Source: Sipunculus nudus (lineage: Eukaryota; Annelida; Sipuncula; Golfingiida; Sipunculidae). Taken from it: a stretch of DNA of 64,000 nucleotides. The position numbers and the translations under genes were made by a program. A model generated the notes under the pieces. It did no database searches. It was not told the origin of the DNA and saw only the letters and a list, made by a program, of their open reading frames with translations. Location of the stretch: contig CM049319.1 of assembly GCA_026874595.1 (NCBI GenBank), positions 67,173,917 through 67,237,916 of the forward strand. Direction: 5' to 3'. The stretch's first letter is position 1; every line of letters starts with the position of its first letter. This document shows, piece by piece, positions 3,193 through 64,000 of the stretch.

Positions 3193-6100
3193 ATGGAAGA
3201 TACGATGAGAAGATTTGTGTTATGTTTTTTTACCATCGTGGCTGTCCTTGTCCTGCGTACTGAAGGAGGACCAAGGCGTGAAAAAGGGAGGAAGGCAGCG
3301 AAAGGGATTCAGGCAAGTTACTGGTGAGTATTGTAATACTGTAGAAAAACTGACAACTTAATGTAAAAAAAAATATGGATATGGACACTGAATGGCACTG
3401 ATGAGCAATAAAAGTAACACTCTACATATATATTAGGCTCCGCTTAAGAGTTATGAAAACAACATTGTAAACACATATAATGTCTCTATTTCAAATTCAT
3501 GAAAAGTTCATGATTGTGTTAGACTGAAAACACAATCCAGTGGTCGGCATTCAGTAAAACATTTAAGTATAAATGAGAATTATTTTAACACATGGTGATG
3601 CTTTTGGCTACATATTGTCTGACTGAATCAATAAAATCGGAGACATTTGGATTAAAGACACATTAAAAGAATCAGACAAAGAGAAAGAGACGATCTCAGG
3701 TTTCATATTTATTTAATGGAAGCAGAAAAAAGCTGATAAATTCAAGATTTCTCATGTGAATCGGCATGATAGGCTGATTTCTTTCAATCGTTCCGACTCG
3801 CTCCACTCTAGACCGCCTTGGACAATATTTGGTAATGTCCCAAATTGTAAAGTAAAAATGTATATTTTATATCTTCCTGTTGTAGCCCCTAGCCTGTTGT
3901 TCATTTCACAAGACAAAGCAAGGGATCATTCCATATTTTATTTAGATGGAAAGAAACCTTTTTATATGCTTAAAAAGACAAACTTACTATATTTTTTAAA
4001 GGTGCAAGTGTGGTGACCGCTTTCGACGGGGATTCCCGATCAACACCACGTGTGCGGCGATGGGAGATGATTGTCAGGCCGCCTGTGAGGAGAATAGAAA
4101 CAAGATGGAAGAAAGGCTCGACGATGAGAAAAAAGAAAAAATCACACAAATGATCTGTTGCCAGGAAAACAGCACTGAAACTCTTACGGTACGTATATAT
4201 ACAGTATTCTTTTGTTAGGAAAGACACAATATCCAGATCATAAATCTTATTCTTAACAAAAATATGGACAATTTAAACAATAATAATAATGAATAATAAA
4301 AATACAAATAATAATAATAATAGTTATTATTATTATTATTATTATTATTATAATTATTATCTAAATAATTGACGTTTGTTGCACTGTCGAGGAACTCCTC
4401 TGTGATCACACGTCGGATATGCACGTTTTTTCGTCTTGAACTGTCGGAAATGATGGGAAGTCTTTAACTCTATTTCTCAAAAAGTAAAGAGATATCTCCA
4501 ATTATTTCCAAAGGGGTTATTCCAGCGCCACTTGTCGGCAATTAGGGAGTATCAAGGCAAAAGTAGTTTGTTACTCTGAATCAGGAATTTAGGCCATATT
4601 TACGTTTTCTGAGACTCAAAGGGTGAGACATTACAAAATGTTCAGTTGTTCGTAGTGCATCAACAGAAAAATTATTCTATTATAAAAATATGAAGTTAGT
4701 AGGCTTGAAATAAGCTTTTGCATATAAATTTACAAATTTTCTTTAGGCATGTTATACTTTAGCTAGTCTTTATTATATTAAAGCACTATTTGTCGCATTT
4801 GTAAGAAGCAAAACGGTTCTACAAGTTCAAAATAATGAACGGTTAGGAGAAGCAAATAATAATAATAATAATGTCCTTCTTAAATCTATATCATAACTGA
4901 CGGTGGTACCACTTAACTTTTGTCACCCAACTCCTCTGCGGCCATGCCTCGGAAATGATAGATTTTTGTCTTGAACTGTCATACACGATGTCTAAGGGGG
5001 GTAATGTGCTGACAACAGTTATCGATCATCCGGTTTAATGAACAGTTCCAGGAAAATATGGTAACATGGAAGGCTGTACAATTAACCTGCCTTGTCATGT
5101 AGCCAGGGCTCTGCAGTCATTCTTGTCATTGCCATTGATAATAATATTAATCTTTGTAAGCTATATAACTGTATCATTTTTTGTCAGGGTTTTCTTTGTT
5201 AAAGTGTCTTTCAGATTTCATTGGGATATGGTATATCGCGCTTGCCCTACACTGTGCCATCATTAAACTGGGCGCTTACAGTAACTGAGTGCCTACATCT
5301 TCGGTAAAAATAAAATTCTGAACCAATACACTATATTACGGTGGCTGATTTAGGACACAGAAAAAAAAAATATTTATCTCGTGATCTCGAGATAACATCT
5401 CGAGATCTCGACATAGAATTTCGCAAAAAAAAAAAAATTTTAGGAAGCAAAAAAAAAAATTTTAGGAAGCAAAAAAAAATTTTAGGAAGCAAAAAAAAAA
5501 ATTTTAGGAAGCAAAAAAAAATTTTTAGGAAGCAAAAAAAAAAATTTGAGAAAGCAAAAAAAAAAATTTTTAGGAAGCATTTTAGGAAGCAAAAAAAATT
5601 TTTAGGAAGCAAAAAAAATTTAGAAAGCAAAAATAAAATTTTTAGGAAACAAAAAAAAAATTATCTTTCGAGATCTCCATAAAAAATGTCACACTTGTAC
5701 GAACCATTCAAAGCTGAATTGACATAAAGGGGACATTATACGTTAAGAGTGCTTACTATTGCAATTATAAAACAAAGACCATGTATACTGTGTTTAACTG
5801 AACCGTAATACAATATAATTAATTTAAAATCAATCAAGTTTGTATATTCCCTGAGATACGGCGAGTTGAAGAAAAGTTCAATATAAATTCAATATTTAAT
5901 ATTCATATCCGTAAGGAAGATGTCAAAGCCTAAAGAATCTGAAACATTCTACCTGAACGGCGGATTCGGAGCCATGCTGTTAAATCACTCAAATAGAAAT
6001 GTTTAGGTCTGCATGCATGCATTGTGGGTACCTTATTATTTTAAGAATCCAAACAAATATGAGCTTCTTATAGAAACACGCTTTTTGTACAATTTCTTTC

Positions 6101-8088
6101 AGCTTTTGTTTTATTGAAATGGTGTGTCGTTTTATGGAACATGTATTAGACCATCATAAATTAAAATATGCTAAAACTGATTACTGTGTTTTCAGGTAGG
6201 TACGCTGGGGGGGGGGGGGGGTCGGGGAGGAGCGTTGCTTCAGCCCCTAAAGCCCAAGTCTTGATCTACTATAGCTCTTACTATAGCTCAGATTAATTTA
6301 ATCAACCTATCTTCATAAATGTTTTATATTCATAAATAAACGGTTTAAAATTTCGATCATCTCTCATCATGATTTTTCTTCAGCAAAATGCTCTGCTTTG
6401 GTCTTAAAGTCGCTATTCACCTGCCTTATTTATAGAATCTTTGTAAAAACTCTGCATATACATATTAAAGAAGTGAAAGTAATCATAAACATAATCTAGG
6501 TAAACATAATCTATTAATCTTTCATGAAAATGAGCCAATGCCATGGGTAAAGGCGGTGTCTTTGTCTATATCCACATTTATTTATAACATGGGTCGGGGG
6601 GGGGGGGGGGTGCAAAAATTGCCACCGATCGTAATAGAAAGACGTCCGGCAGAAACATCTGGCTTCAATTCAGAGATTACAGATTTCTGTAAATGACAAA
6701 TACTGCATTGCTTCACATGCTCTTACGAATATAAACTAGTGATCTTTCAATAACTCGGTTACATGTTTTTATCTGTATGTTAACACTTGCTCAAGTGGCT
6801 TGTATACAAGTAGCCTTTAGATAAAATGTTTATACGTCAAAGTGACGTTATAAGACCCATTCCAAGCTTGGGTTTCTTCCTAAATTTTTTTTTTGCTTCC
6901 TAATTTTTTTTTTTTTTGCTTCCTAAAATTTTTTTTTTTTGCTTCCTAAAAATTTTTTTTTTGCTTCATAAAATTTTTTTTTTATGCTTCCTAAATTTTT
7001 TTTTTTGCTTCCTAAAATTTTTTTTTTGCTTCCTAAAAAATTTTTTTTTTGCTTCATAAAATTTTATTTTATGCCTCCTAAAATTTTTTTTTTTTGCTCC
7101 CTAAAATTTTTTTTTTTTGCTTCCTAAAAATTTTTTTTTTGCTTCCTAAAAATTTTTTTTTTGCGAAATTCTATGTCGAGATCTCGAGATGTTATCTCGA
7201 GATCACGAGATAAATATTTTTTTTTCTGTGTCCTAAATCAGCCACCGTACTATATAATTTATTAATTTATCTTTTCCCTTACACTTATAAATGTATGCAT
7301 TTTCTTTTTGGAATACGAACTTGTTTCTTTACTAGTGACTACTTGTAACATTCTGTTTCTCAGTTGATGCCATAAAATCATTGAGGACACAGTTACATCC
7401 TTGTCATACCTATCTATATATAAAACGATCATGACTCCTTAACTGGCTTAATTAAGACCATGTTAATAAGACAGGAGCGGATATCGAAACAGGGGTGGGT
7501 TAGGAATATAACCCCCTTTAAGGAAATTGCATTATATGTCCCGTATTTAAGGCTTATTCCCCCCTTCTTGTACTGTGGCCTTAAATGAATCGTTTCTATC
7601 GATGTAATATATATAATATATTAATTTATCCTTTCCCTTACATGTAAACATGTTTGTGTTTCCTATTAGAAAAAAACTCTTTTCTTGTACTGTGGGCCTT
7701 AAAAGAATTTTTGTTTAGTTCTAAGCATAAATCCCTCCATTGCAAAAACCCTTGACCAATCCCCACTAAAATAATGCGTTCCAATCAACAACTTGGTGAA
7801 AATGACCTCTATCATGTCACTTTCTAGATGACCAAACAGGACACGGCTTCATCCAGTGACACAACCTGCGAGGATGTGACTGGCGACCTCCTGCCTGTCA
7901 CGATCAATTGCGATGATGTGACTGGCGACCTCCTGCCTGTCACGATCAATTGCGAGGATGTGACTGGCGACCTCCTGCCTGTCACGATCAATTGCGATGA
8001 TGTGGACTTGGAGAATTGCAGAAAAGGTCACGGCATTGTAAGACGTGGTGGCGGTGAAAGACAAACTGGGGGTGGTTGGGAGACGTAA
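3193..8088 (+). CDS. Secreted cysteine-rich protein with three 14-residue repeats (3 exons, unrecognised family)
   Basis: Exons 3193-3323, 4002-4188 and 7828-8088 join in one frame to give 192 residues. Donors are GTGAGT and GTACGT; acceptors are TTTTTTAAAG and CACTTTCTAG; junction phases are 2 and 0. Exon 1 encodes a signal peptide (hydrophobic core FVLCFFTIVAVLVL, residues 8-21; Met1 or Met5 could start it) and a basic stretch. Exon 2 starts WCKCGDRF and holds seven cysteines (45, 47, 61, 68, 72, 96, 97) around a Lys/Glu-rich helix-like segment. Exon 3 holds three exact-length 14-residue repeats (C-E/D-D-V-T-G-D-L-L-P-V-T-I-N, cysteines 120, 134, 148, 162), then C169 and a Gly/Arg-rich tail. 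I do not recognise the family; a secreted defence or matrix peptide is possible. Exon 3 is the least certain join. Confidence 0.6.
4189..5330. other. First part of intron 2 of the Cys-rich gene
   Basis: This is intronic. It holds a (TAA)/(TTA) microsatellite at about 4279-4363 that inverts polarity near 4322, and a short (AAT) tract at 4853-4873. I see no other feature before the foldback element. Confidence 0.5.
5337..7249. mobile_element. Foldback-type element with long repeat-filled inverted arms
   Basis: The left end reads TACGGTGGCTGATTTAGGAC at 5337 and its reverse complement ends at 7249. The outer 110 bp of both arms is nearly identical and includes clustered TCTCGAGA palindromes. 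Each arm then carries 10-15 tandem copies of a unit of about 20 bp made of TTTTAGGAAGC plus an A-run (5434-5660; mirror at 6875-7163). Arms of about 350-375 bp flank a spacer of about 1.2 kb with no ORF and two 15-G runs. Direct repeats CTATAT at 5331-5336 and 7250-7255 fit a 6-bp target-site duplication. No transposase is present, so it is non-autonomous. It sits inside intron 2 of the Cys-rich gene. Confidence 0.85.
7256..7827. other. Rest of intron 2, with local duplication
   Basis: A segment of about 60 bp (ATTTATTAATTTATCTTTTCC and following) next to the foldback end recurs imperfectly at about 7605-7665. TTGTACTGTGGCCTTAAA at 7567 recurs at 7684. Otherwise nothing is seen before the exon 3 acceptor. 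Confidence 0.45.
7867..8006 (+). repeat. 42-bp coding minisatellite in exon 3
   Basis: Units start with TGCGAGGATGTGACTGGC or TGCGATGATGTGACTGGC at 7867, 7909 and 7951; a fourth partial unit begins at 7993. The period is 42 bp (14 codons), so copy-number change keeps the frame. GAG and GAT alternate at the second codon. Confidence 0.9.
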
Positions 8089-19899: not shown

Positions 19900-21990
19900 A
19901 TACAAAAATACAAGTGGCTCCACCAGTCTGCAGAAACTAATAAAAACACTTAATGGTCAATATCCATGCAAAAAATCATGGTGATCTCTGCATTAGGTGT
20001 TCAGATACTTCAGTTTTTGTATCAAATTGTCCATTATTCTGAGGGATACTTCGGAGTCCTATAGCTTGAAGGATATGGGTAACAGAGACCTAATTTCAAG
20101 TTTCCACAGGCACCTTTCATGGGCCTCCTTGCATGACAAGAATGAAGATTCTAGGTCCAGTTGTTGCGATTTGTACCCTGTTGACAGATAACCACATCTT
20201 TAAAGGTCTCAAAAAAAAAGAAAAAAATTCGTAAAAATTTGAAAAAAAAATAGAGGTGGCACACCCAGTCTGCAGAAACTGATGGAACAGCTCATGATCA
20301 ATATGTATGCCGAAAATCATGACCATCAGTGTTGTAGTTATTAAATTACTGCAGTTTTTGTATCAAATTTTCCATTATTCTGGGGGGGGGGGGGGTATTT
20401 TGGACCTATACAGCTTAAAGAATATGGGTAACAGAGACCTAATTTCAAGTTTCCATGGAGACTTTTCATGGGTCTCCCTGTGTGTCAAGAATGAAGATTC
20501 TTGGTCCAGTTTTTATGATTTGTGCCCTGTTAACAGATGTTCATATCTTTAAAGGTCTCAAAAATACAGAAAAATTTCGTAAAAAAAAACGAACAAATAC
20601 AGGTGGTGCCACCAGTCTGCAGAAACTTATGAAACACTCCATGATCAATATCCATGCAAACAATTATGGTTATCTCTGCATTAGTTGTTCAGATACTTTA
20701 GCTTTTGTATCAAATTTTCCATTATTCTGAGCTGTACTTTGGAGTGCCATAGCTCAAAGGATATGGGTAACAGAGACCAAATTTCAGGTTTCCATGGAGA
20801 CTTATCATGGGTCTCCCTGTGTGTCAAGAACGAAGATTCTAGGTCCAGTCGTTACGATTTGTACCCTGTTGACAGATAACTACATCCTTAAAGGTCTCAA
20901 AAATGGAGAAAACAATTCGTGAACATTGAAAAATACAGGTGGCGCCACCAGTCTTCATAAAACTGATGAAACATCTCATGATCAATATGTATGTCGAAAA
21001 TCATGACCATCAGTGATGTAGTTAATGAGATATTGAAGTTTTTGTATGAAATTTTTGACTATTCTGGGGGGTAATTTTGGGCCCCATAGCTCGAAGGATA
21101 TGGGTAACAGAGACCTAATTTCTGGTTTCCATGGAGACTTTTCATAGGTCTCTCAGTGTGTCGAAAATGAAGATTCTAGGTCCAGTCGTTACGATTTGTG
21201 CCACGCTAACAGATGACAGCATCCTCAAAGGTCTCAAAAATAGAGGAAAAAATCGTAAAAAATCAAACAGTACAGGTGGCGCCACCAGTCTGCAGGAACT
21301 GATCGAACATCTCATGATCAATATGTATGCCAAAAATGAAGACCATCAGTGATGTAGTTATTGAAATATTGAATTTTTGTATGAAATTTTTTACTATTCT
21401 GGGGGGTACTTTGGGGCCCCATAGCTCGAAGGATATGGGTAACAGAGACCTAATTTCTGGTTTCCAAGGAGATTTTTCATGGACCTCTCAGTGTGTCAAG
21501 AATTAAGATTCTAAGTCCAGTCTTTATGATTTGTGCCTTGTTAACAGATGTTCACATTTTTAAAGGTCTCAAAAATAGAGAAAAAAATTCGTAAAAAATC
21601 GAAAAATACAGGTGGCGCCACCAGTCTGCAGGAAGTGATGTAACATCTCATGATCAATATGTATGCCAAAAATCATGACCATCAGTCAAGTAGTTAATGA
21701 GATATTGAAGTTTTTGTATGAAATTTTTGACTTTTCTGGGGGGTACTTTGGGGCCACATAGCTCGAAGGATATGGGTAACAGAGACCTAATTTCTAGTTT
21801 CCAAGGAGATTTTTTATGGACCTTTCAGAATCCCAAGTTACAATGTTCTAGGTCCAGCGGTTACGATTTGTGCCTGGTTAACGGACGGACAGACGGACAG
21901 ACGGACAGACAGACAGACGGACAGACGGACAGACGGACGACGGACAAAGAGTGATCGCTATAGCTCAGATGACTTTCAGTCAGCTGAGCT
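19900..21990 (+). repeat. Tandem array B, six units of about 336-347 bp, ending in ACGG microsatellite and hairpin
   Basis: The line CCACCAGTCTGCAG recurs at about 19921, 20263, 20610, 20946, 21283 and 21619. Each unit carries ATGGGTAACAGAGACCTAAT and ATTCTAGGTCCAGT, and the later ones begin with GGTGGCGCCACC (20938, 21275, 21611). The last unit runs into GACGGACAGACGGACAGAC (21887-21935) and the terminal hairpin AGCTCAGATGACTTTCAGTC / AGCTGAGCT (21963-21991). It looks like a pearl-like element whose core has expanded. Confidence 0.88.
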
Positions 21991-30032: not shown

Positions 30033-30237
30033 TAACACGTGCGCTCTCTGTAAAGAACAAAAACACAGGTTCTCGCAGTTTCTTCAAACCAGACGTTCGA
30101 ATAACATACGTGTTGTATCTTCTGTAGTATACTCCTGCAGTGTGCGATCTCATGTGTCCCTCTTGTATTATACAACTTACGGTATCAGCTGAAGTCAGTT
30201 TACATAAGTTACAAATTAAATTGCAATTAGATTTTCA

Positions 30238-33200
30238 CTGTATCTCATGTTCGTAGCCCTCTCTTTCACATATTGGGTAATGTCGCTTCGAACATTTCAC
30301 ATCATTCCACATGTAGAGCAAAAGCCTCTCCACGACCACACAGTTCTGCCTAGCGTTTAATATGTTGTTTGGCTGGCTGTAAGCCCAGTTGGAAAACTCT
30401 ACCTTTTTCCCGGTTGAAGCCCACATCCAGGTGTTCTCGATGTCTGTATTGATGGCACTTGTCCAGAAACTTGAAAAACGTTTCTTCATATCTGTTAAGA
30501 GAGCATATTGATCAATGTTTATACCCCCCATCTGGCCACATATTGGTGTTGCATAATAATAAATATGTTTCTTATTCTTTTTGCTGAATGAGCAATTACA
30601 TATCGTTGATTCAAAGTTCAAACGTAAAAAAACCTGTATTGATTTACCGATCCCACAAAATCACACAAAAAATAAGCTTGTGTTTTTATTAGTTTTCTTC
30701 TCACAAAAAAAGTGGTCAGGTTTGCTAGCTACATAATATGTGCATGATCCTTAATTCAGCCTATCCTAGAGGTACAGACAGGCTACGCACCTACATTTGT
30801 CGAAGGAGATGAGGCTTACATTATCATACAGCGCCAAACTTGGTATTCCTGATACTCCGATAACTCGTTGTGCCACACACACGTTATACTCATTCTATTT
30901 GCAGCAAAATTATACGAAAAAGGTAATTCATGCTCTAAAGTAAACCATTCGACTGCTAATCCAACCAAAAGTTTAAAGTATTTTTTTTTAATTTCAGCGA
31001 TAAGGTAGATGTATAATACAATTTATATGTGTATATATTATTATTATATTTATTATTTATGATCATACGAGCTTTTGAAGCGCTAAGTCTTCTCTTTCAG
31101 GTGGTTAGTGGGAATTATTAGAGATGTTTATAAATTGTACAGTAATAACGTATAATGTTCATAATGCAAAAAAATTGTATTTATATTCTGATTGGATATA
31201 CAGCATTATTTAAACCATGATGCCCTATGAGGGCGTGGTATAAAGCAGTAAGCATCGCCTTTCTCATGAAATTCTTCGGAATGTCATATATGCAAACGTC
31301 ATCCACTTTATGAAGTCTCGGGTCACTCGGTGAAAGGGTCCGAATTTAAAATGGAGGGCCGAACCTTGTACCGAGTGACCCGTGACGTGACGTGATCATG
31401 CTGATGAATTTATTATCATCGGTTTGTAACAACATATTAGATGTATTATAATGTATTACCATGCTGTGCGTCTTTTTTTATGACATTCTCCAGCTGACTC
31501 TGCTCTTCTTTTGATTCAATGCTCACGAGGCTTGCATTCTTCTTCCTGCATTCAGCCACTGCCGCTGACCAAACCATCGCTCTCTGTTCAACAAAATTGA
31601 AGTTTCAAAATAGTACATGACGAGGGGTACTTTACGTTAAAATCCCCCCCCCCCCACACACACACACACACAAATGAATACGTGACAAAGATTTCAAACG
31701 CTTGAAACCAAATTCCTTTCATCATTTAAAAATGCTAATAGTGGGAATTCCAAAGTAAAAGGATAACTGCCATTCAGAAAAAAAAAGGATACATGCACAT
31801 AACATTTAATGTGTTATACACACAAGGCTTTCATTTGTTAATCAGAATGATTAAAATTTGAAAAAATGTAATTATCACTCTGATTATAATAATATAATGG
31901 TATATTTTAATGTAAATGTTTTCCTGATATTGCTTACCTGGATGACAAAATAAGAGGAGAGCGTCTTCTCGTTACGTGTGTGCGAGCTTCCAGGAATTTC
32001 TAGCTCTATGATTTCCAGATAATCTTTGGGAGATAGATATTGTGGAATAACGAACCTTGACATATTAAACGTAGTTTTATTTAGTAGGTTTTATTGCATA
32101 CATTCCGTTCTCTATTGGTCTACAATCTCTTTAAATCTCAGGGTAAAACTGACATAACAATAAAAAAAACTACACTCTCGACTCTGTTCATGGCTGATCT
32201 ACGGCCAATTTTACAAGTTCGGGGGTAATTCAATTAAAATGTGTGTACCATAAAGGGAAATAAAAGATAGATTCTTGAGAAAATAATCCAATCACGTATG
32301 GTGCATAATGAGTCATTTGGAATCGGTCCGTCGACAAATTTAACACAAATGATTTTTTTATTATAATTTAAATAAGCGAACAACTACTTCCCAGAAAATA
32401 TCGAAGACTATCATAGGCGTGTATAATATACGCATAATCTGTAATACCTTTCACCATTTGATATACGGTCGCTCCCTGGAAATGCTCTTTCTTTTTAACT
32501 GGGTTGACAGAAAGCATGCAAGTTCCATTACTGTATAAGGTTACAGTCCCACAGGACGAACGTTCATGACATCTTGCTAAACAATGCAATGCACGGACAA
32601 CAGATAAACCAGATATGTTCACCCATTCTGACGTCATGGATACTACCCTCTCCTCGTGGCTGACATGATACCAGACCATTTGCTGAACAATGGATCCAGC
32701 GGCTATTCAGGATATTCCATACAAATAAATGCTCTTAGCGATACTATGACCAGTCATTATTTAAAGTGATAAATGATTTTCATAATAATTATGACAGCAT
32801 TTGAAAGTCCTATTTTTCCATAATTTTGAAATATATCGTTGTTATATTTTAAAACTAATGAACACAACATGCTATAGAATCTATCAATTTAGTTAAATGT
32901 GAGACATGTATAATGTAAGAAATAAAGGTTAAATGCAAATCGCATATGTATTTAAAACTGCATCTACATTTTCATCTTCACACTATATTTGATTCAAATA
33001 CACTGAAGATCGTTCTCTTAAATCCTATATACTATACAATAATAATCTTATGAAGTATTGAAGCAGATTGTATTCATTCCTTAATAATATGTATTATGTA
33101 AACAAATAATCCCGGATGGGCGGGACGGATTGGCAGCGACAAATCCTAAACCAAATATCATCGTTATTGCGAATCCGTAAATTTTTAAATGATTTGAGTG

Positions 33201-34599: not shown

Positions 34600-34727
34600 C
34601 AGTGAGCTTATACCTTGGGCCACAAGGTTAACCGTCATCCCTGACGAGCCCCCATTTGTTACCAAGACAAATTGTTCAGGGGAAAATATCGGGCCGATCT
34701 GCAAGCTTCACTAGTCACCCCGTAACA
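34600..34727 (-). mobile_element. TRIM-like LTR fragment, copy 3 (LTR plus primer binding site)
   Basis: On the minus strand, a 71-bp LTR (34727-34657) begins TGTTACGGGGTGAC and ends CTTGGTAACA. A primer binding site TGGGGGCTCGTCAGGGAT (34654-34637) follows, one base off the tRNA-Pro type. The leader CTTGTGGCCCAAGGTATAAG matches copy 1. No second LTR is found, so the copy is truncated. The LTR lacks most of the tRNA-like module but keeps ATCGGCCCGATATTTTCCCC. Confidence 0.8.
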
Positions 34728-39786: not shown

Positions 39787-40425
39787 AAGTTATGAGTTTC
39801 ACAAAAATCCTAGATATCGGCAGATATGACCTTGACGGGGAAATTCTAGGATACAGGTTTCAAACTCTTTCAATAACTTATCATCTGACACATTTTATTT
39901 TGATATTTAGATAGATACATCTATCGACTCGAGAAACAATACCCCCCCCCCCCTCCAATATCAGATTATTCAAGGTCAAGGCCACTCTCGCCAAATATAG
40001 AAATATTCAAAATCAAGGCCACTCTCATAATTAAATTCAAGACCCCAATTTAAATATACCTCATTCAATAACTAATATCTATGCATATGCATAATATAAA
40101 AGAATTCTCAACATTATTTTTGACTTAAATTGCTTACATTACTGTCAAGTGGCAACGATGATTTTTTGAGTTATCCCTAAAAAATTTTTAACTGCGATGG
40201 CGGCGGACCGACATAAAACCATAGTATCCTCCGACTTTGTCTTGGGATACAATTTGAAATTTTGCCTGCTTATACGTAACGCCCATTACAACAGCACGGT
40301 GCCATAACTGTGGAACACCGAAATCATCCCCTCCAGGTTATGGCTGACGTATCGTTAACATTATCAAGTTTGGCTTCATGGCAAGTCCACAACGCATGAA
40401 CGGACAGTATCGTTGAACAACACAT
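39787..40425. other. Intergenic, nothing recognised
   Basis: A C-run lies at about 39943-39954. A short direct repeat TCAAGGCCACTCTC occurs at 39976 and 40013. No gene is seen. Confidence 0.4.
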
Positions 40426-40783
40426 TGTTACGGGGTGACAAAAAGCGGAGCGAACTGTCTCGCTAGTGCAGCTTTCTTTTCTAGCGAAACCATTTGTCTT
40501 CGTAACAAAATGGGGGCTCGTCTAACGTGACGGTAAACTTTGTGGGCCAGGGAATAAGCTCACCAAAGTGTGACTCCTGGGATAATTAGTCTTGTTCTGA
40601 TAGCAGAACGCTCTTAAGAGGGGGTGTGTAACGGGGTGACATAAAAGCGGGCCGAACTGTCTCGCTAGTGGAGCTTGCATTTTTGGCGAAGTGGTTTGGT
40701 ACGCCGGACTTGTACGCCACCGACCTGGGTTCGACTCCCCGTTCGGCCCAGGATTTTCCCCTCCACAATTTGTCTTCGTAACA
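40426..40783 (+). mobile_element. Complete TRIM-like LTR element with a tRNA-like module in its 3' LTR
   Basis: The 5' LTR (40426-40507, 82 bp) and 3' LTR (40627-40783, 157 bp) both start TGT(T/A)ACGGGGTGAC and end CTTCGTAACA. ACAT flanks both sides (40422-40425, 40784-40787), a 4-bp target-site duplication. After AAA the primer binding site TGGGGGCTCGTC (40511-40522) matches the tRNA-Pro type for 12 bases. AAGAGGGGGTG just before the 3' LTR fits a polypurine tract. The interior is about 120 bp with no ORF. The 3' LTR carries an extra segment of about 73 bp with a perfect A box TGGCGAAGTGG (40684-40694) and B box GGTTCGACTCC (40728-40738). It depends on another element's enzymes. Confidence 0.88.
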
Positions 40784-41569
40784 ACATGCACAAGCTGAAA
40801 GCTGAACCCAGGCCGAAGCAGACCACCGGGTTCTTAGCTCGCTTTCACTCATTAATTCATTCCTCTAATGAAAATGTATTAACTACCAGAATAATTACAG
40901 ACCCAAGGTCCAAGGTCGATTGTAGACAGTGTAACAGGAAAAGTACACAAGAAAACCCCACTTCGAATTCCTTTCCTCCCACTGACAATGTAGCTGTTAA
41001 AGGCACAGACACTAGCGTGTAAAATAGCGCAGAAACTGTCAACACACTTAGTATGGACGATATATCAGAAATATCGTTTATATATCCTAATATCAGTAAT
41101 ATCTTTTACTATTGCTATATAGCAAACCAGTGAATAATGCTTGTCAGTAACTTGTTTATATAGGCTCTTTCAATTGCGTTGGGTCCCAGTCTATATATTT
41201 CTTGTTTAAAGTCAATCAAAAGATGACATAAAGTTCTTTGCGGGCCAACCATGAAAGTACCAATTAATTGATACAATCCAGTTGCAAATGAAGATGCCAG
41301 CCTTGTGTATATTTATATAAACAAAATACTGACAAGCATTATTTACTGATTTACCGCTTTGAAAAGGGTAGGGATGGTTTATTGGTTGATTGAAAAATGT
41401 TTAAGCCAAAATTTGTACCAACAACGATTCAAGCGCCTGTAATGTGTCGTACAGCAAGGGGCCTCTCGGCAAGCTGATGGTAAATGTACGTTCACATGCC
41501 ATCCAGTGCATGGATGTGTCTTCGCTACCACTCTCAATATGTTGAATTTAAAGAACGCAGGTCTAGCTA
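40784..41569. other. Intergenic, nothing recognised
   Basis: No repeat or gene motif was identified; the frame overlapping the TRIM end (to 41022) is not supported. Confidence 0.35.
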
Positions 41570-52654: not shown

Positions 52655-53120
52655 TGTGAAAGGTAATGTTAATGGTTGGAACGCTGGACTTGTGTGCTAC
52701 CATAATTAGCGCCATTTCGGCCCTCTAACATTAAAGATCAGAGTCAGTGCAGTAGGAGGAACCACTGAATCGGGTAATCTTGACTACACCATAATGGACT
52801 CGAGTCGGGGATCGGCGCTGTTCTATTTTTCCATGATAAAATAAAATTGTATTTAGGATATGTCCACTTTGCAAATGGGGGGGGGGGGGGGGCTCGTCCG
52901 GGATGGCGCCTTTGAGGCCTAGGGAAAGGTGGTTTGAGTAATAATTACCGCCACCTAGTTCACCTAAATTGTGACAATTGAAGCTTGCTTTATTGACAAA
53001 GCGGTTGGAACGCTGGACTCGTGTGCCACCGACAGAGGTTCGAAATAGGGATGAATCCTACTCTTATTTTCCCCGATAAAAAAAAAAACAACTTTACATT
53101 TAATGTCTGACCATTTGTCA
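52655..53120 (+). mobile_element. TRIM-like LTR element, copy 2, with tRNA-like modules in both LTRs
   Basis: A 5' LTR (about 52655-52873) contains GGTTGGAACGCTGGACTTGT and ends GTCCACTTTGCA. Then comes a primer binding site TGGG..GGCTCGTCCGGGAT with its G-run expanded to 16 (52876-52904). The 3' LTR (52970-53120) starts TGTGACAATTGAAGCTTGC, contains GGTTGGAACGCTGGACTCGT, CACCGACAGAGGTTCGAAA, and ends TGACCATTTGTCA. The 5' LTR has an insertion of about 110 bp inside its tRNA-like part. Ends and target duplication are less clear than in copy 1. Confidence 0.7.
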
Positions 53121-53281: not shown

Positions 53282-55549
53282 TTATATCAGCGGTCTGGTG
53301 ATATTGAACAATAAGAAGTCGAACAAATACATGTCACCCGGCGTCATGTAGTGAAATGAAATACTGCTCTCACTCAGAACTTGAAATCTCTGCAAAGAAA
53401 GAATACACATCATCATTATTATCATTATCATCATTAGCTTTCTAATACAAACCGAATTTTTTATTCACTTATATTAACAAATTTCATTTTTAACTAAGAT
53501 AGAAACATGATAGGGTTGGGGGGGGGGAGAGAGAACTGGGTTTTCAGTTATTGTCATACCGTTTAATATCAATCCACTTTAATAGGTTTTGTTGTTACTT
53601 GATTTTTTAAATAGTGTTCCTTTAAATTTTTTGTTATAAAATTGTTAAAATATCATTGCAATAGTAATAATAATTATTATAATCATCATTTTAATTATAA
53701 TAACAATTATCGTTTAACATAGCAATCTTAACAGTTATTTTCAACGTCACAGAAGCTCCTTGTTATTTTGCATGTAGTATATATTTAGATAAACTCACTG
53801 CCTTCGTATTAATGAGGTCCCTGAAGCCGAACCATCGCATTTCTTTATGTCCTTTTTCTTTGTTTAGGAGCGAGATTGGGTTTTCTTTGAAAAACCGCTC
53901 ACGGCCACGTTCATCTTTGGTGTTCTCTGCCGGTATCCCTAGTTTGAGCAGACACCAGCCAACGTTAAAGTCCGCATGCTCCTCGTGACGTTGTCGCTTG
54001 ACCCAGGGCACACATGCGCCGTGGGTGTCGGACGGAACTCCCCGAGAAACTAAGGTCTCGAGTGCAGCTTTACTCAGAACGTAACCTGACCCACCGTGGG
54101 CAAAGCGTAACCGTTGTTTATTAACCATGATCCTGGTCGGATACGGAAATCCCAAATAATGATGCATGGTGGGATCGAAACCTAACAGGAAGTGACGTAA
54201 GTGCTCAATGATGACGTAAGTGTCGTCGTCGGCCACAAGGAACCAATCATACTCTTGCAAATATTGACTACAAATTCGGCGTAACGTCCTAAATAGCCGG
54301 AGTGTTATATATGACTTTTTAGTTTCTGTGATACCAACAGTGATTGTGTCAAAGCCTGAAGCCTCCGTGTTGCTACTGAATAGGAGTTTGTCACAGCGTT
54401 TTCCCCATGTCCCCTTAACAGCTGTTCCTCGCGCATATATCGTGGAATTAAGAGAAAGCACCAGACAGAAGATCTTTGAGGGATTATCGTGGCCTTTTCT
54501 TGTTGAAGGAATTTGCCCAACTTGTACTAGATCATCTTAAATTAAAAAAAAAACATAAATTTCATGAATAGAGTCAACAAAACGTGTTTTCAAAGTGTCA
54601 TACAATTTATTGTTCTGTTTGGAGGACAAATGATAGATATCATTGGTTTTGAATTATTATATGTAAACTGCACGCATGCATATATAAAATATATCTAGAA
54701 GATCTGTATAATATTTCCCTGTTTTTGTGTGGTAGAAATTTTTTTCTATCATTATTACTAATGATATCGGTTCTTATTCAATTACTTTCCATATTTAAGT
54801 AATTGCAGTTTAGTTCTCTGTAACGGTTGTTGATACCTGTATTATTGTATATGGTGTTCTACATTTCCAGAAAATAATATTTTTCCTACTTAAAAGGAAT
54901 CTCACGTGATTCCTCTGCACATTTGAAATTAAGACCTTTATTTTAAAATTCACACATACTCAAACAGCCGAACTGGATATCCAGTGGACCATGCATGTAC
55001 TGAAAGTATATATAGCCGCACGTAATCAAAATGTGAATATTCTGAAGAGAATAAAATTATCCTGTAACAAGAGATCGAAATTGATAGATACATGTGACCA
55101 GTTATTATACTTTGTTCTGTTGAATTATTTAATACAAGTCAAGTGTTTTCACTTGTTTTGGTTACACATAATTACACCAGTGTTACGGAAAGATCCACCA
55201 TTATCATCTGGAGTATTTCTTACTACAACCCCGCACATGCATGTTTAGATTGCGTGCGTGTGAGTATCTTGTGTACATCAGTTAAACCTCCCTAGCCCTG
55301 GACTAGTTATCGACTATTCACTGCATATATGTCAATCCCAAGCAATCACGTCAGTTCATTAAAAACATACATATTCAGGAAAATATAAATATATTGGTTC
55401 AACTCACCTCGACCTGACCATTTCGTGCTATCGCCGTCTTTCCTTCTATCAATTTCAACAGAAACCGTCACTAATGACTGATACAAGTTGAAAATTACTG
55501 AAATAACCAGAAGAGAAAATATCAGAAAGCGACACGTTCGGGGAGGCAT
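53282..55549 (-). CDS. C1GALT1-like beta-1,3-galactosyltransferase (GT31, 3 exons)
   Basis: Exons 55549-55408, 54535-53799 and 53389-53282 join in phases 1 and 0 to give 328 residues. Residues about 6-26 form a signal-anchor (FLIFSLLVISVIFNLY), as in type II Golgi enzymes. The catalytic domain has TAVKGTWGKRCDKLLFSS (about 85-102), the metal-binding DDD in WFLVADDDTYV (150-152), HGGSGYVLSKAAL (about 194-206), GRERFF, and in exon 3 SSISFHYMTPGDMYLFDFL, matching the SFHY end of core-1 synthases. The family transfers Gal from UDP-Gal to GalNAc on Ser/Thr, making core 1 O-glycans. The donor GCA|GTGAGT at 53798 is preferred over reading on to a TAA at 53763, because exon 3 restores the conserved tail. 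The vertebrate enzyme is about 360 residues. The exact orthologue is uncertain. Confidence 0.88.
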
Positions 55550-62645: not shown

Positions 62646-62690
62646 CATATATATATATATACATATATATATGTATATATATATATACTC
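62588..62690. repeat. (TA)n-rich microsatellite with ACAT interruptions
   Basis: Long TA runs with CATACATATA-type interruptions produce Tyr/Ile ORFs in several frames that are not genes. A 16-G run lies just upstream at 62527-62542. Confidence 0.9.
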
Positions 62691-64000
62691 TGACAGGCAT
62701 AAACTGCCAACAGAAACTACCCATTCTACCCGATGTCACAGCGGCACACTCTGACAGCAGAGACTCTAATATATTAGTTATGGTCATAGTACCCGATGGT
62801 CAGAGAGGCACACTCTGACAGCTGATACTCTAACCTATGAGTCATGGTCATGGTACCCGATGGTCACAGAGGCACACTCTGACAGCTGATACTCTAATAT
62901 TTGAGTTATGGCCATGGTACCCGATGGTCACAGAGGCACACTCTGACAGCAGATACTCTAACCTATGAGTCATGGTCATGGTACCCGATGTCACAGAGGC
63001 ACACTCTGACAGCAGAGACTCTAATATATGAGTTATGGTCATGGTAGCCGATGGTCACGGAGGCACACTCTGACAGCAGAGACTCTAATATATGAGTTAT
63101 AATCATGGTACCTGATGGTCAGAGAGGTCCATTCTGACAGCTGATAATCTATGCTCATGGTACCAAATGGTGACAGAGGCATAATCTTACAGCAGATACT
63201 CTAATCTATGAGTCATGGTCATGGTACCCGATGGTCACAGAGGCACACTCTGCAGATACTCTAATCTATGATCATGGTACCTGATGGTCACAGAGGTCCA
63301 TTCTGACAGCTGATAATCTATGCTCATGGTACCAAATGGTGACAGAGGCATAATCTTACAGCAGATACTCTAATCTATGAGTCATGGTCATGGTACCCGA
63401 TGGTCACAGAGGCACACTCTGCAGATACTCTAATCTATGATCAAGGTACCCGATGGTCACAGAGGCATACTTTGACAGCAGAAACTCTAATCTATGATTA
63501 AGGTACCCGATGGTCACAGAGGCATACTCTGACAGCAGAAACTCTAATCTATGGTCAAGGTACCAGATGGTCACAGAGGCATACTTTGACAGCAGAAACT
63601 CTAATCTATGATCAAGGTACCCGATGGTCACAGAGGCATACTCTGACAGCAGAAACTCTAATCTATGATCAAGGTACCCGATGGTCACAGAGGCATACTT
63701 TGACAGCAGAAACTCTAATCTATGATCAAGGAACCAGATGGTCACAGAGGCATACTCTGACAGCAGAAACTCTAATCTATGATCAAGGTACCCGATGGTC
63801 ACAGAGGCATACTTTGACAGCAGATACTCTAATCTATGATCAAGGTCCCGATGGTCACAGAGGCATAATCCGACAGCAGAAACTCTAATCTATGATCAAG
63901 GTACCCGATGGTCACAGAGGCACACTCTGACAGCAGAAACCCTAATCTATGATCAAGGTACCAGATGGTCACAGAGGCATACTTTGACAGCCGATACTCT
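62691..64000. repeat. 57/64-bp minisatellite running off the window
   Basis: Units contain GATGGTCACAGAGGCA, ACTCTGACAGCAG and CTCTAATCTATGA. Spacing is 64 bp at 62809, 62873 and 62937, 63 bp to 63000, then 64 bp again to 63064; toward the end it is 57 bp (for example 63579 to 63636). A block of about 169 bp is itself duplicated (63107 and 63276), giving a higher-order repeat. The 57-bp period equals 19 codons, so both strands stay open by chance. Confidence 0.93.

Follow-up and report, generated by a model that had tools for sequence, protein, structure and literature searches.

The element at positions 40426-40783 of the window, by which we mean the whole 64-kb stretch of Sipunculus nudus DNA that was analysed (G000:C14:67173917-67237916), is with a probability of roughly 0.93 a Helenus-type TRIM copy with a predicted tRNA-like Pol III promoter in its LTR and a 5′ LTR damaged by deletion. 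Helenus elements are TRIMs with tRNA-like LTRs (TRIMp3), which Kojima (2024; PMC10886601) reports from fungi, one plant and six animal phyla, and the window element has each of the testable structural features given in that description. The earlier note on this DNA had read it as a miniature LTR element carrying a tRNA-like Pol III promoter module and as a parallel to plant Cassandra. The anatomy of the element upholds this view, with the promoter predicted from its boxes. The further suggestion that it may be an undescribed solution was anticipated by the description of Helenus (PMC10886601).

Direct reading of the window revealed a complete non-coding LTR mini-element of 358 bp. The LTRs, ACAT duplications, primer site and purine tract claimed by the earlier note are all present where it had placed them (Table 1). 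The primer binding site TGGGGGCTCGTC is of a type that we take to be tRNA-Pro. The 3′ LTR was scored with general A-box and B-box consensus patterns, and matches beginning at 40684 and 40728 agree with the two boxes that had been claimed. The two LTRs differ in length by 75 bp and are 86% identical across the 64 bp preceding the module. Their alignment gives a 73-bp deletion in the 5′ LTR, which corresponds to the extra 73 bp noticed before in the 3′ LTR. The claimed lack of coding capacity is borne out, since the single listed stop-to-stop frame of at least 110 aa that overlaps the element begins in the 3′ LTR and exits into the flank.

Table 1. Features of the window element, its relatives in the window and two places where a Helenus-type LTR joins leader and gag region. 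Positions refer to the window unless a locus or contig is named.
Feature	Position	Strand	Basis
Target-site duplication ACAT, left copy	40422..40425	+	sequence
5′ LTR, 82 bp, TGTTACG..CGTAACA; most of tRNA-like module deleted	40426..40507	+	sequence, alignment
TAGCGAA, remnant of A-box start within short 5′ LTR	40482..40488	+	alignment with other LTRs
Internal region, 119 bp, without TTTT run	40508..40626	+	sequence; similar in other copies
Primer binding site TGGGGGCTCGTC	40511..40522	+	sequence
Polypurine tract AAGAGGGGGTG	40616..40626	+	sequence
3′ LTR, 157 bp, TGTAACG..CGTAACA, with tRNA-like module	40627..40783	+	sequence
A box TGGCGAAGTGG	40684..40694	+	consensus match, family alignment
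B box GGTTCGACTCC	40728..40738	+	consensus match, family alignment
TTTT run 3′ of B box; candidate Pol III terminator	40754..40757	+	sequence
Target-site duplication ACAT, right copy	40784..40787	+	sequence
Decayed relative: LTR head and box-less module tail, with the same primer site and the first part of the internal region	34601..34727	-	alignment
Diverged relative: two tRNA-like stretches flanking primer site with long G run	52665..53043	+	alignment
Helenus-type LTR joined at primer site to leader and gag of probable Gypsy element	L077 1347-1620		
Helenus-type LTR joined at primer site to leader and gag (L107 = first 163 bases)	G000:C6:10617200-10618252		

The window also contains two open frames on the minus strand, one matching a Fringe-like family (53763-54536, E 5.1e-16) and the other a C-type lectin family (30235-30660, E 3.2e-8). 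A 73-nt inverted repeat with 100% complementary arms located 1,718 nt apart (5362-5434 / 7153-7225) adjoins tandem repeats of 21-23 nt and is possibly a DNA transposon. Tandem arrays occupy positions 62658-64000 (unit of about 57-64 bp) and 19935-21931 (unit of about 335-349 bp).

Relatives of the window element are common in the 1.43-Gb genome. A search of the assembly with the element listed at least 91 matches, drawn from the best 40 of 2,959 first-look candidates, with other copies reaching E-values down to 3.6e-121, and the element is therefore far above chance. The 41 loci of the first set (30 loci and 11 further stretches) contain LTR-internal-LTR units, many of them about 431 bp long with repeats of about 156 bp, and frequent tandem arrays. 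Among 38 of these loci, the outer ends of which were placed by hand, the outer flanks carry exact 4-bp duplications in 25, duplications with three of four bases equal in six, and neither in seven; several of the duplications are ATAT and sit in flanks rich in AT, in which a match by chance is more probable. Arrays of at least two internal units enclosed by one exact 4-bp duplication were observed in L004, L005, L007, L017, L035 and L038. The LTR pairs of 21 units, four of which sit in two arrays and share LTRs, have a mean identity of 0.929 within a unit (range 0.891-0.994) and of 0.900-0.919 between units, and the internal regions across the 21 units have an identity of 0.947. The slightly greater likeness of LTRs within a unit is expected for copies of one template that drifted later. 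The LTR pair of L026 is nearly identical (0.994). The long internal part of L051, judged by eye, resembles an inserted DNA transposon.

The module in the window element is not a full tRNA. ARAGORN (bacterial code) identified no real tRNA gene in the window or in the 41 loci, and Rfam gave no match at gathering score anywhere within the window. The four Rfam matches at E of at most 10 in positions 40600-40800 included the tRNA-like mascRNA below threshold (23.1 bits versus 42.5), the others being at chance level, and none was to 5S rRNA; 11 other loci had zero Rfam matches at E 0.1. The Pol III promoter is predicted from the A and B boxes. Across copies, conservation is not clearly higher in the A box (0.933) and the B box (0.942) than elsewhere in the LTR, where the values are 0.964 upstream of the boxes, 0.930 between them and 0.913 after them. 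The T run occurs in both LTRs, with some copies in the LTR alignment lacking one, and its presence in both should end some transcripts early.

The asymmetry of the window element is best read as a deletion of 73-75 bp in one copy, because a remnant of the A box persists in the short LTR, LTRs with both boxes are common, and deletions elsewhere have different breakpoints. The LTR alignment covered 71 loci (the 41 and 30 further ones, two of which were repeats) and contained 181 segments, 166 of them with both LTR ends; a box was scored as kept at 9 or more of 11 aligned bases. From the 95 units seen, 13 with an unrecognised LTR end, four duplicates and one reaching beyond the stretch were left out. 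The earlier note had described the module in one LTR only and had advised scoring both LTRs genome-wide. This was done for the 77 scorable units, 63 of which keep both boxes in both LTRs, so that a module in one LTR only is not the rule. Ten of the 77 units (the window copy included) have an incomplete A or B box in their 5′ LTR alone, two in the 3′ LTR alone and two in both LTRs; a surplus of 5′ defects is expected from the use of two queries that both start with the short 5′ LTR, since sampling by similarity to the window element biases the set toward such defects.

Internal deletions of at least 8 bp are present in 32 of 146 distinct LTRs. Those LTRs in which both boxes are wholly or mostly gone (L001, L014, L043, L045, L047 and L054) differ in their breakpoints. 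The deleted LTR positions are 64-136 in the window copy, 58-138 in L045, 30-108 in L054, 37-115 and 119-139 in L014, and 53-103 and 108-145 in L047, and L043 has three deletions. A search with the 5′ LTR gave at least 60 matches (from the best 40 of 1,854 candidates), and the deletion of the window copy was found in none of the six other loci that cover nearly all of the query. The short LTRs thus look like separate deletions, not one-sided design. A module-free subfamily was also considered and rejected, as none appeared among the matches listed, and the short LTRs of L043, L045, L046, L047, L049 and L022 (= L044) break elsewhere. The lopsided window copy is a caution against inferring a mechanism from one copy.

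The short 5′ LTR could instead represent an ancestral promoter-free LTR, with the module being a SINE inserted later into the 3′ LTR. One LTR in the window is without the module, and Kojima derives Helenus from SINE insertion into the LTR of a TRIM (PMC10886601). The short LTR, however, retains TAGCGAA, which is the first seven A-box bases of other LTRs, and the ACAT duplication encloses the entire element. The earlier note had raised the case of a SINE with its own duplication that is absent from other LTRs, whereas the module was found at the same place in most of the LTRs aligned. Secondary SINE insertion was rejected on the A-box remnant together with the module in most LTRs, and we regard it as extremely improbable.

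Another element may also have donated the 5′ LTR, through recombination of one copy with another or inside tandem arrays. Such LTR-internal arrays are frequent among the loci fetched, recombination among bivalve TRIMs has already been proposed (PMC6934838), and the 86% identity of the window LTRs over 64 bp is below that of all 21 within-unit pairs. Nevertheless, the outer ACAT duplication is intact, and zero of the six loci nearly covering the 5′ LTR query (among at least 60 matches listed) has this deletion. We consider this origin unlikely.

A deletion in the window copy might have occurred during reverse transcription, by slippage at a hairpin (TCGCTAG/CTAGCGA) or by faulty plus-strand transfer, in which case the LTRs would have been unequal from the start. 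Deletions are frequent among the distinct LTRs, and the unequal L014, L016, L022 and L036 are single insertions with exact duplications. The left breakpoints of 13 of the 32 deletions fall within 7 bases. None of 20,000 random placements produced such a clustering, in a test that ignores sequence context and shared ancestry. The clustered breakpoints lie at LTR positions 28-34, upstream of the A box near the TCGCTAG/CTAGCGA hairpin, and belong to L002, L003 (two), L016, L017, L028, L036, L054, L056, L059, L064, L065 and L069. The window deletion lies outside this cluster, and an ordinary deletion after insertion would be indistinguishable. We consider an origin during reverse transcription possible, if doubtful, and retain the broader reading of a deletion in the window copy.

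A candidate for a partner that would mobilise the family was found through the 18-base site TGGGGGCTCGTCCGGGAT, the first 12 bases of which are matched by the window copy. The site occurs 529 times in the genome, and its reversed control 0 times. The 30 loci fetched were the first ones on contig C1 and hence non-random. Ten of the 30 have a short non-Helenus LTR and downstream sequence like that of L098, itself one of the ten, and in seven of the ten the short LTR ends in CCGTAACA. A Helenus-type LTR is present in 14 loci (including L077 and L081), only a Helenus internal region in two, and neither in four. A 292-aa piece from L098 contains a SCAN domain (E 1.8e-13); its zinc knuckle match fell below the cut-off. 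The SCAN-gag element is probably a Gypsy element, judging by the type of its gag, the shortness of its LTRs, a primer site of tRNA type and the reported link of animal Helenus to Gypsy. The earlier note had suggested looking for an autonomous gypsy-like element with the same primer site: the SCAN-gag element answers to the primer site and probably to the Gypsy assignment, and no pol region was seen in its copies or in the junction copies.

In L077, a Helenus-type LTR (85% over 151 bp) abuts the primer site of the SCAN-gag element, behind which come its leader and gag region; the stretch from the primer site on is 91% identical over 898 aligned columns, and the gag frame is broken. L081 also has a Helenus-type LTR, and its likeness to the leader is limited to the first 35 bases. 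With a 268-bp query across the L077 junction, all 40 scored places (the best 40 of 2,666 candidates, one being L077) cross the junction and reach more than 100 bp on each side, primer site included. A 1,030-bp query that continued as far as gag had matches covering both the LTR and gag in two of the best 40 of 3,063 candidates, L077 and C6:10617216, and the other 38 matches begin at the primer site or leader. Most junctions are probably without contiguous gag, since the best junction copies (C12, C8 and C5) are missing among the 1,030-bp matches listed. No partner LTR was found within 10 kb of L077, L102 or L107 among the matches listed (best 40 of 808, 1,818 and 3,164 candidates, respectively). 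On C3, a pair of Helenus LTRs separated by 9.4 kb was set aside, because they have the purine tract and flanks in common, which indicates a segmental duplication. Near position 1500 of L079, L080, L084, L085 and L090, the primer site continues straight into LTR sequence, forward or inverted, via CCGGGAT, which is common to the T-arm part of the module; these joins may reflect template switching.

The LTR-leader junctions suggest a mobilising partner, and the SCAN-gag element would be a likely source of reverse transcriptase and integrase, because its leader and primer site are shared with the Helenus-type junction copies. Sharing of internal sequence has a fungal precedent in LTR-1_PTrit and Copia-9_PGr (PMC10886601). 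According to the same paper, autonomous partners are expected to use Pol II promoters and to share no long LTR stretches (PMC10886601). Kojima (2024) calls it not known how the dependence of a TRIM on its autonomous partner is kept up (PMC10886601), and the LTR-leader junctions at 40 scored places, together with the common leader and primer site, make one answer testable. We speculate that Helenus and the gag-bearing probable Gypsy element swap parts at the primer site, and that a coding element has in this way taken on a tRNA-promoter LTR at its 5′ end; we hold this to be quite unlikely. If it were true, and if the same LTR were present at the 3′ end and the element were mobile, it would be a protein-coding LTR retrotransposon driven by a tRNA-like, Pol III-type LTR. 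The S. nudus genome offers many Helenus-type copies along with a concrete partner candidate that has a SCAN-type gag, and it is the junctions with the probable Gypsy leader that merit further attention.

Based on these observations, a replication cycle can be proposed. Transcription by Pol III would start in the 5′ LTR, about 10-20 bases before the A box, cross the internal region, enter the 3′ LTR and terminate at the T run that follows the B box there. Reverse transcription of the RNA would be primed by tRNA-Pro, and proteins of a Gypsy-type partner would carry out reverse transcription and integration, the latter producing the 4-bp duplication. Copying and integration by the partner proteins would thereby bring the module into both new LTRs. 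In the window copy, a deletion of 73-75 bp that reaches from within the A box almost to the tail of the LTR would have shortened the 5′ LTR, either after insertion or during reverse transcription.

Cassandra is a small, non-coding plant TRIM with a 5S rRNA Pol III promoter in its LTR. The window element follows the same scheme, being short and non-coding and having a predicted Pol III promoter within an LTR, and differs in that its module is tRNA-like, with no 5S match at gathering score in the window. Ajax, a nemertean TRIM, is described as having a 5S-derived module and 5-bp duplications (PMC10886601); its architecture is similar, whereas the S. nudus element has a tRNA-like module and a 4-bp duplication. 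The biv-TRIM elements of bivalves are likewise animal TRIMs with tandem forms, reported to have repeats of 202-218 bp, an inner domain of 77-80 bp, the polypurine tract GGGGAGA in most, and no clear primer binding site (PMC6934838). In contrast, the window element has LTRs of 82 and 157 bp (about 156 bp in the family), an inner region of 119 bp, the tract AAGAGGGGGTG and a clear primer site.

Among the open-licence PMC articles listed in the literature searches, the only reports of tRNA-like LTRs were Kojima (2024; PMC10886601) and a meeting report that repeats the Helenus result (PMC12859917). Kojima describes Helenus elements of 311-1263 bp, with 51 families in Pteriomorphia bivalves, where primer sites include tRNA-Pro; in animals they have 4-bp target duplications and are said to be mobilised by Gypsy, with which they have the primer binding site in common, and their transcription by Pol III is called unvalidated by the paper itself (PMC10886601). 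The S. nudus elements share with Helenus two LTRs, a primer binding site and a polypurine tract in a short non-coding element (358 bp in the window copy and about 431 bp in many others). They further share A and B boxes in the LTRs, found here in the 3′ LTR of the window copy and in both LTRs of most scored units, the 4-bp duplication, which is ACAT in the window and exact in most loci compared, and the tandem arrays reported for LTR-11_DR (PMC10886601). The window copy departs from Helenus in its 5′ LTR, which lacks most of the module and shows a remnant of it, and the genome does so in also having Helenus-type LTRs joined to a leader that is probably of Gypsy type.
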